64,000 nt of DNA from Aphrocallistes beatrix (Eukaryota; Porifera; Hexactinellida; Sceptrulophora; Aphrocallistidae): NCBI GenBank assembly GCA_963281255.1, contig OY725502.1, forward strand, positions 3,906,001 through 3,970,000. The letters are read 5' to 3'. Positions within the stretch are counted from its first letter, which is position 1; every line of letters starts with the position of its first letter. Under the pieces are notes generated by a model. The model made no database searches, was not told where the DNA came from, and saw nothing but the letters and a program-made list of their open reading frames with translations. Below are positions 2 to 25,749 of this stretch, in pieces. The position numbers and the translations under genes were made by a program.

Positions 2-3000
2 GGGGTGGGCATACGACTGGCTTCAGATGAAATGAGAAGACGATTATTTGCGATGGAAGAGAGCAGACTGGCTAAAATAAAGGCAGATGCACAGGCCAGG
101 AGAAGGGAAAGAGAGAAACAGAAAGAATTGAAGAAACAACGTGAAGCATATAGATACACTGCTTTAGAGAGGTATCAAATATTACAAATGCCGATTTACT
201 TACAAATGAATACTGGATAATCATACAACAAGTGATTTCCACGAATAAATATTGGCTAATACTATGTGTTTTCACTCTAGTTCTTATCAAGACTGGCTAA
301 TTGCTGGACTCACGAATATCCCGAAGTCTCCGATATATTCAGCTCTTACCTCGTTTCAAGAACGCATCGCTAATGTCTCAAATATTTCTACTGAGCACTT
401 TTCATTTCCAGATAGGGAAGAATTCGTTGACTCTTGTACCATAGTAGATGGCACTGAGTTTGCAGGTGTTATAATGCCAAGTGTGAAGCTAATTACCTCA
501 GATTTGTTTACATTGTTTGAGGATCACTTAAAAGGATGTGGATCTTCTTATAGGTAGGCTAAGTATTGTTTAATGATACAATATTTCTACATGTAAATAT
601 AAAACTCATAATTTAACTAGTTATACAGTCACCCATTTCAATCCATATTCATTTGAAGCCATTTCTCGAGGGACAACTATTCTTTTGTGCAAATGTATTC
701 GAGGTTTATCCGCTGCATCCATTTCCTTGCTTTCATATTGATTCATCATACTTGTTCGATAAACATCTTCTATAATGATACTTTGATCTGAACGCACACT
801 GAGATAAATGTTTTTCTCATCATTAATATTCATCATCTTTACTTTGAAGTCATATCTTATTTGTTTCACAAAGCAACCTTTCATATTAAATATTTTGATG
901 GACATTCCCTCTCTATCTTCATCTAATACTATTATATTCCTTTTGTTAACCTGGATCCCAGTTGGTTTCGACAGTACTTTTCTCCCAAATTGAAGGCATA
1001 TTGGTATTAGTTCTTCAGATAGTATCATAATCCGAGCATTTAGTGAATCACAAACATAGATTTGACCTTGTGAATCGGTTGCTATTGCAGCTGGATTTTT
1101 TAATCGCATAATATGTTCTTTTAAAAATGTTTTATCGATCCTTCCAATATAATCACCAGTAAGTGTAAATAATGCGATTTCACCACGTTTACTCTCCGTG
1201 ATAAATATCATATTATTCATGATCATCATCCCGATAGGGGTTTTCAAAAGGTTGTTAGAAGGTCTTAGTTCCCATCTTGGAAAATGGAACTGGTAAGCCA
1301 GCTGATCTTGTGAGAATGCATAAACACAGTTATTAATAGAATCGGTTACGTATATTAACTCCGTTTCATTGTGTACTAAGATATCTTCAGGTTTAGTTAG
1401 CGTTGGCATTTTAGTTATTTTTAATGTATCCTCATGTTGTACCGGGTCATAGGACTTAATGTTCAATCCAATTTCATTTCTTCTCTTCCGATTTCGAAAT
1501 TTTCTTTTGTTTTCGTACGAATCTCTTTCGCTACTCGCGACATTGTCATTTTCCGCATCGTGTATGAAAACATCCGGGGTCTCAGGGGTCACTGACGAAA
1601 CGGAATCTTCATCTATTATTTTAGGCACTTTTGTTCTTTTTGGAGATTTCCATACGAAATGATTGGGAGAAGATCGAGACCGCGAATATTTGCTTCCCAT
1701 ATTGTTAATAGAGCGAGTTAATAAGAGTTATTAAATTGATTTGAGAATACAGATTTAGTTTCAATATATATATTCACTTCAGGGTAGATTTCCCATTTGT
1801 ACCTTGGTAATAAAACTACGTTGTTTATTGAAATCATGAATAAATCACTAGCAAAGCTTTGAATCAAAATTACGATACACCCAGTACTAGTTAATAATCT
1901 CTCTGCTACCCTACAGTAACGCCCCCGCATCTACTTTTAATTATTGTCTAATTAATTTTGCAAGCATCTATTATATCTGCAATTCATATACTATATTTTT
2001 TGATTATTGTACAAGTTTTAAGTACTTTATGTCATATGTATTAGAGGACATTCGTAAAAAAGTATCAATTATACCATTTAAAACACACGTGTTTGCAGTT
2101 GTGACTACTCAAGATTTGTATTTTTTCTATATACAATTATTATACGTGTTAGTACTTAAAATGGGTGAAAGTGGATATTTAGATATCGCATCATAGAGAT
2201 TTTGTCTAAAAGAATCTGCTATGTCATTTTAGTTTTGTTTGTTCGTTTTTGTCAAAAGCTATACAGTGAATATTGATAATTCGTACTGTAGATATAGACT
2301 GTATTAAAGTTGTGTGAATTTATTCAAGTCAAAATATGTTTACATATGTTATAATCTTAAATATTTTTGTTTAGATTAACTTTGATTCGAGAAAAAAGAC
2401 GAGATCTACTAAATAATATTTTCACGTCTATCGATGATCGGTTGGATAGCAGATTAAATAGACACAGGATTGTACAACTTTTGACACAATTCTATGATCA
2501 TGCTAGCACCGAAACTCAGAAAAATCTTATTGACCCAAAATCATTCGGAATTTCGGAGTTTGAGCAGGATATAATATGTGAATCTCAATCCAATATCGCA
2601 CCAGAAGTTCGCGGAGATTCAGGTGAGAATAATTAATGTTCTTTCGATTCCATTTTCTATTACAGATATTGAACTGGACGGCATACTATTTGATTTATAA
2701 GGTATCTAATTCTTAAAGTTTACACTCTCATACAAAAATGCTTACTCATCATTAGTTAATAAAGCAATAATTTAAACAAAAGAACACAAACATGGAATTA
2801 CAAGTGCGAACTAACATTTTAAAACTATAATCACATCTAAAGCCGAGTTTCATTTCATATTTTGTTGTTCATTAATACTTATATCCATGGTACATGCAGT
2901 ACATGCATGTAATAATAGGCTAGGCGCATTTGGTGTTTTTATTATTATTTTGAACAATTTGGCATTCGCTGATGGTTTCTTGTGGAGAGGTTAAAACGTG

Positions 3001-25749: not shown

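Follow-up and report, generated by a model that had tools for sequence, protein, structure and literature searches.

The window, by which we mean the whole 64,000-nucleotide stretch analysed here, is C16:3906001-3970000 of the 100.5-Mb, 28-contig genome of Aphrocallistes beatrix; the analysis also covered the adjoining 10 kb to its left (L002). All positions are given in window numbering, with an L002 position p converted to window position p-10000. The locus is occupied by a large plus-strand gene, hereafter the host, whose coding span of 30.7 kb comprises 15 exons (one added in this analysis) and 1372 codons. The original prediction had joined 12 exons in phase from base 2 to 25749. These were reproduced when the splice junctions were rebuilt, with 3378 nt and no internal stop; a caveat is that a random join would be in phase one time in three. 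The 12 exons are only the 3′ part of the host: its start codon lies 4.9 kb left of the window, at -4916 (L002:5084), and exons 1 and 2 as well as the beginning of exon 3 lie outside. The introns used in the host model have GT..AG ends. Splice-site strength was assessed by leave-one-out scoring of 19 donors and 20 acceptors, with the uncertain exon 1 donor excluded. The parts of the host are as follows.

Host exon 1: -4916 to -4662, plus strand; start codon at -4916; its donor, chosen from six phase-0 options, is less certain than any other junction
Host exon 2: -4450 to -4218, plus strand; placed with the splice-site model
Host exon 3: 1 to 171 in the window, plus strand, with its first 30 bases at -29 to 0 (L002:9971-10000); GT/AG sites and in-phase join
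Host exon 4: 281 to 553, plus strand; splice-site join, single genomic copy
Host exon 5: 2375 to 2622, plus strand; splice-site join, donor ranked first of the 19 scored
Probable host exon 6: 3102 to 3323, plus strand; phase 1 at both ends, supported by codon score, absent from the original prediction
Giant host intron: 3324 to 18138, plus strand; 14815 bp with six guest genes, whose spans make up 64% of it
Host exon 7: 18139 to 18939, plus strand; acidic linker followed by the beginning of the C-terminal part; acceptor tied for 6th-7th of 20
Host exon 8: 19105 to 19308, plus strand; carries a sub-threshold EF-hand match
Host exon 9: 21972 to 22150, plus strand; splice-site join
Host exon 10: 22269 to 22455, plus strand; splice-site join
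Host exon 11: 22629 to 22789, plus strand; splice-site join
Host exon 12: 23109 to 23313, plus strand; with the end of exon 11, the region of a sub-threshold GAF_3 match
Host exon 13: 24476 to 24897, plus strand; start set by homology, which adds 19 residues and closes an alignment gap
Host exon 14: 25146 to 25295, plus strand; splice-site join
Host exon 15: 25372 to 25749, plus strand; includes the stop codon

Ten guest genes lie in four introns of the host, five on each strand. MFSa, MFSb, MKKa, MOB and the DZANK1-like gene share the strand of the host, and NHL, MKKb, pyridoxal kinase, PABP-like and PABP lie opposite, so that the expected presence of guests on both strands holds. By their coordinates all ten coding regions fall entirely within one host intron each, and all ten have open frames. 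Nine of them have Pfam or solved-structure matches; MFSb was judged through its 98% identity to MFSa. Seven guests are modelled with a single exon; the exceptions are pyridoxal kinase (four exons), PABP (three) and the DZANK1-like gene (two).

MFSa and MFSb: about -4029 to -2614 and -1945 to -530, plus strand; single-exon sugar transporters, with matches of MFSa to solved sugar transporters
NHL-repeat gene: 621 to 1700, minus strand; single-exon open reading frame of 359 aa, Pfam NHL E 3.4e-10, in host intron 554-2374
MAP kinase kinase a (MKKa): 4405 to 5808, plus strand; single exon, 467 aa, MKK4 the best solved match (E 2e-72), Pfam Pkinase
MAP kinase kinase b (MKKb): 6798 to 8363, minus strand; single exon, 521 aa, assigned by Pfam and by similarity to MKKa
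Pyridoxal kinase: 9018 to 10725, minus strand; exons 10725-10630, 10513-10354, 9961-9648 and 9404-9018
MOB kinase activator: 11462 to 12106, plus strand; single exon, 214 aa, Pfam Mob1_phocein E 5e-71, MOB1A E 1.1e-72
PABP-like gene: 12643 to 14610 (or start at 14625), minus strand; single exon, two RRM stretches and an MLLE domain (Pfam RRM_1, MLLE)
Cytoplasmic poly(A)-binding protein (PABP): 15152 to 17341, minus strand; 608 aa in three exons, the last of which matches Pfam RRM_1 and MLLE
DZANK1-like gene: 19647 to 21813, plus strand; two exons, Pfam DZR 7.9e-09 and Ank_2 3.1e-10, in host intron 19309-21971

Eight guests had been predicted from the window, and all eight were found with open frames. 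Two more bring the total to ten: the tandem pair MFSa and MFSb occupies a 4188-bp host intron left of the window. The NHL gene on the minus strand of intron 554-2374 and the DZANK1 gene of intron 19309-21971 were both recovered where they had been placed, the latter as a double zinc ribbon and ankyrin protein of about 690-700 aa whose exon junction is one of six in-frame options. The six genes assigned to a single intron (two MKKs, pyridoxal kinase, MOB, PABP-like and PABP) are likewise confirmed by their coordinates. The MOB gene had been labelled ‘MOB3-like’; its best solved matches are MOB1A/1B. Pyridoxal kinase matches solved pyridoxal kinases with an E-value of 5.1e-72 over residues 5-304 of 316, with the last donor/acceptor choice provisional. 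A boundary at 9989 for its third exon was out of frame at the join, and 9961 was used.

When the 391-residue last exon of PABP (RRMs, MLLE) was searched against its own genome, 27 matches were obtained, the match to itself scoring 879 bits. The others were the PABP-like gene (160.8 and 70.8 bits), MLLE-only stretches on contig C11 (70.7 and 70.5 bits) and a remainder at 44 bits or less. Judged from its last exon, PABP is probably the sole canonical cytoplasmic PABP of the genome.

The 1279-residue version of the host protein was compared with solved structures using phmmer. A single chain of 1509 residues, 9fqr_Xl, matched strongly (E 1.3e-97), and one other match had an E-value of 0.33. Query residues 50-385, coded before the giant intron, aligned to residues 119-440 of the chain with 107.7 bits, and residues 655-1270, coded after it, aligned to 818-1481 with 226.0 bits; host exon 3 lies inside the stretch aligned to 119-440. 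Correcting exon 13 and adding exon 6 raised the second stretch from 226.0 to 256.4 bits, for a total of 357.6, and slightly lowered the first, from 107.7 to 106.2 bits. With exon 13 begun at 24533 a gap relative to 9fqr_Xl remained, which the start at 24476 fills. Pfam matches on the host were confined to GAF_3 and EF-hand, all sub-threshold (EF-hand_6 at 13.7 bits against a cut-off of 25).

The PDB listing names chain Xl ‘A-kinase anchoring protein 14’, which we take to be a small protein, unlike this 1509-residue chain, and the label looks like a naming slip for EFCAB5. In the available text describing 9FQR, a model of the bovine sperm doublet microtubule, EFCAB5 is placed in radial spoke 3 and is reported to contain a DPY30-type docking motif for AK7 (PMC11779644); host segment ~145-165 falls within the alignment to the chain. 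From the length of the chain, this published account and the lack of another strong match, we infer that 9fqr_Xl is EFCAB5. The EFCAB5-like identity proposed for the host is thus supported by a colinear match over most of the length of that chain, and the question whether the segments on either side of the long intron are colinear in one EFCAB5 protein is answered in the affirmative. Because both halves match a single mammalian chain in order, they represent one ancestral protein, which, judged from sequence similarity, was almost certainly EFCAB5. Query residues 386-654, the linker around the giant intron, are of low complexity and have no convincing alignment to 9fqr_Xl. Since the edges of the intron fall in this linker, the homology spans the intron and does not reach its edges. 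Mouse Efcab5 is reported to be expressed mainly in the testis, and its knockout to reduce sperm motility (PMC12423330).

The probable sixth exon lies at the left end of this long interval. Segment 3102-3323 is open and acidic, with phase 1 at each end like the neighbouring exons. Under a codon model for which the guest exons served as training set it scored 21.9 bits, which none of 1392 simulated noncoding open reading frames (at least 73 codons, scored over 73 codons) attained. The gaps between the guests of the giant intron were scanned for internal exons of 41-700 bases (n=85) and initial exons of 13-700 bases (n=46). Among the internal candidates 3102-3323 ranked first of 85 with 22.2 bits (runner-up 3.3), and among the initial candidates the segment from the ATG at 3086 to 3323 ranked first of 46 with 22.3 bits (runner-up 3.0). 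It has an unremarkable donor and a weak acceptor, the last but one among the 20 scored, and the protein alignment to 9fqr_Xl gives the exon no support. Segment 3102-3323 is likely a host coding exon missing from the earlier model; the alternative is a first exon starting at ATG 3086 and joined to 18139. The host product has 1372 residues with this exon and 1298 without it.

As an internal exon, 3102-3323 divides the interval 2623-18138 into introns of 479 and 14815 bp, with all six guests in the larger. The single intron 2623-18138 originally proposed therefore keeps its six guests, and its span is probably 3324-18138. Whether internal or first, the exon has to be joined to 18139 across these six guests, and the intron that holds them is thus independent of this choice.

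The alternative use of 3102-3323 bears on whether the locus holds one gene or two. Under gene fission, a 5′ gene would end just past exon 5 and a 3′ gene would have its own promoter. Reading beyond 2622 reaches a stop within a few codons, two AATAAA hexamers follow in the 400 bases downstream of exon 5, and the edges of the intron lie in the poorly aligned linker, all of which fission would accommodate. However, the span holds 26 copies of AATAAA on the host strand, so that the two after exon 5 carry little weight. ATTAAA occurs 24 times there, none of AATAAA, ATTAAA, AGTAAA and TATAAA is found within 501 bases past the host stop, and hexamers of the poly(A) type are uninformative at this locus. 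Moreover, the outer sites of the long intron are good, as donor 2622 scores highest among 19 and acceptor 18139 ranks 6th-7th of 20. Between the guests of the giant intron, only 3086-3323 scores clearly as a coding first exon, and even this exon would need to be joined across all six of them. A late start exon before 18138, named in the original prediction as a sign of a split gene, has no clear coding candidate: among segments of 13-700 bases in 17342-18138 the best scored 0.3 bits, compared with 22 for 3102-3323. We consider fission distinctly unlikely.

A single mature message could also be assembled from two transcripts. If each half were transcribed from a promoter of its own and the two RNAs were then trans-spliced, no polymerase would have to cross the six guests, and one axonemal protein would be produced without transcription through nested genes that include the apparent sole canonical PABP. 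Trans-splicing and cis-splicing yield the same protein, so homology cannot separate them, and a glass sponge with a trans-spliced leader is described in the available text of one report (PMC10282587). On the other hand, ordinary splice sites on one strand and in the right order make the extra step needless, and none of the 15 inverted-repeat pairs listed (arms of at least 18) links the ends of the intron. This makes trans-splicing very improbable in our estimation.

A further alternative is that guest DNA was misplaced into the host during assembly; nothing was found in its favour. A search of the whole 100.5-Mb genome with the 1298-residue host protein gave 15 matches, all within C16:3901084-3931746, on the plus strand and in gene order, one of the 15 being an additional, partial duplicate of exon 2 at 58%. 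Neither half of the host was found intact a second time in that search. Single-copy, ordered host exons argue against an artefact, and ten guests in four introns would take several independent errors. The duplication of the transporters, at 95% rather than 100% and with a piece of a host exon alongside, physically ties a guest to the host. An assembly artefact is accordingly the remotest of the explanations considered, and we regard it as extremely unlikely.

The same duplication bears on how the guests came to lie there. MFSb is 98% identical to MFSa, with the next match at 53% (own-genome search, 84 matches), and the two copies of the DNA unit containing the transporter agree at 95.2% over 1920 aligned columns. 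Between the two transporters, at -2269 to -2137 (L002:7731-7863), the 3′ part of host exon 2 occurs a second time, with 88% identity over 134 columns. On its left side the duplicated block can thus be followed to a point within host exon 2, and the duplication most likely postdates the nesting of the transporter. By eye the exon 2 fragment shows an acceptor-like AG and a GT donor. It was considered as an extra host exon and set aside because, again by eye, its acceptor phase does not fit.

Two further pairs of guests are related. Among the 91 matches listed for MKKa, its closest relative in the genome is MKKb (59% over residues 130-467), followed by a match of 47% on contig C8. Residues 61-176 of the PABP last exon are matched at 67% by the PABP-like protein, whose RRM part is shorter than that of PABP and which may be a partial copy. 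Three of the ten guests can be read, from these similarities, as copies made within host introns, the direction of copying being the presumed one. The locus hints at how a nest grows, by duplications in place, one of them beside a piece of a host exon.

Taken together, these results support a model that we regard as highly probable, in which a single-copy EFCAB5 orthologue of a compact genome hosts ten guests in four introns and is transcribed through and cis-spliced, with part of the crowd having arisen in place. In the order of the introns, the polymerase would meet the two sugar transporters, the NHL gene, the group of two MKKs, pyridoxal kinase, MOB, PABP-like and PABP, and finally the DZANK1-like gene. 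Each guest has its own start and stop codons, and a separate promoter and 3′ end are assumed for each. Transcription would run straight through the host, whose introns would be removed by ordinary cis-splicing, with donor 2622 and acceptor 18139 as the presumed outer sites of the longest interval. U1 protection is a mechanism that suppresses poly(A) sites inside transcripts, and the poly(A) sites of the guests might be ignored in host transcripts in this or a similar way. Conflict between host and guests is probably limited, as the host may serve mainly flagellated or sperm cells and guests such as PABP would be housekeeping genes. Part of the crowd would have arisen by copying in place: the MKK pair would have formed in this way, the PABP last exon would have given rise to the PABP-like gene, and a tandem duplication to the second transporter.

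Read-through of this kind can fail. At mouse H13/Mcts2 one active same-strand nested gene is reported to suffice to end the host early (PMC13309782), and a second report describes nested active genes able to stop their host (PMC3192792). By analogy with H13/Mcts2, full-length host mRNA may be scarce, and host isoforms ending after exon 5 beside the full mRNA are plausible. If a single nested gene truncates H13, ten guests make the question of read-through a sharp one. The locus offers a natural test of how a host is completed across its guests, with five of them on the same strand within 30.7 kb, a host that is testis-enriched in mice and a housekeeping gene among the guests.

While the original prediction called the number of guests extreme, nests of 13 have already been published, in an intron of fly Flo-2 and in human MOB2, and the locus appears to be a dense rather than record-breaking case of a known arrangement. 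The comparisons that follow draw on the available text of each source. Drosophila flotillin-2 carries 12 GMC genes and CG14406 in one 83.2-kb (second) intron, a cluster conserved in four insects (PMC1891103). It resembles the present locus in having many coding genes in one intron with relatives side by side. There, however, the GMC genes share one orientation, opposite to the host, within 83 kb, whereas here six mostly unrelated genes lie on both strands of 14.8 kb. In Drosophila CG18675, a host of ~20 kb with transcripts high in testis samples, the TipE cluster places five genes in the last intron (PMC3240667). Several genes again share one host intron, but those guests are mostly of one family; here there are more guests, in four introns, with the housekeeping PABP among them. 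Human MOB2 contains 13 nested genes, some noncoding and six of them KRTAP5 paralogues, and NF1 contains three coding genes in one intron, all antisense (PMC4394429). Both hosts have several guests, as here, but within large mammalian introns.

Nested genes are common in glass sponges and have also been counted in a ctenophore, both with small animal genomes. The 80-Mb genome of Aphrocallistes vastus is reported to have 19,578 genes, 12,409 single-exon transcripts and 2432 nested genes (12.4%), and this combination of a small genome with many single-exon genes is matched here by seven single-exon guests out of ten (PMC10282587). The density of that genome, one gene per 4.1 kb, predicts ~7.5 genes in 30.7 kb, so ten guests are somewhat above simple packing, though close to it. 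In the ctenophore Hormiphora, 2357 nested genes are reported in 1654 hosts, many of them parallel to the host; the case illustrated there has four guests in one host, compared with ten here (PMC8527503). No mention of this EFCAB5 nest was found in the available text of the open-access papers on nested genes that the search covered.

Other features were recorded in and near the window. Upstream of the host, at L002:3963-4544, is a putative dihydrofolate reductase-like gene, recognised from its open reading frame. A short interspersed repeat around CTCCGCTTAATCGGGACA occurs at 6036-6233, 16740-16890 and 22840-22990; it forms inverted pairs at the first two sites (a gap between guests and a PABP intron), the site in a host intron was recognised by eye, and the repeat has the look of a short mobile element or palindrome. 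Within the window no structured RNA matched Rfam at the gathering score, and ARAGORN found no tRNA. Right of the host, a single-exon open reading frame of 1290 codons at 28152-32024 appears, by eye, to encode a protein that is secreted or membrane-bound and crosses the membrane near its C terminus; Pfam returned nothing for it at E 0.001. At 37988-45450, whole or partial chitinase-like (GH18) genes lie in both orientations; three of the open reading frames there have near-identical starts, and two pieces match GH18 in Pfam. A GREB1-like gene runs along the plus strand at 51772-62215, with Pfam GREB1_2nd at 52504-53070 and GREB1_C at 61601-62212, and long open reading frames at 56624-59120 inside its span are either middle exons or a further nested gene.

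The genetic code of the mitochondrion could be read from COX1 on contig C28, which contains 14 TGA and no TGG codons. Its 16 AGA codons include those in NNISFW and PPLSSIQAHS, AAA is found at the lysine of NHKD, and ATA at isoleucine-type sites. Several AGA codons stand at serine positions taken to be conserved, and the ATA sites are taken to be normally isoleucine; on this footing the gene is mitochondrial COX1 with the glass-sponge code. In the available text of a study of glass-sponge mitochondria, AGR is read as serine, AUA (Ile) is favoured and UGG is nearly absent, and AGR as serine is otherwise described from only some bilaterians (PMC2267718).
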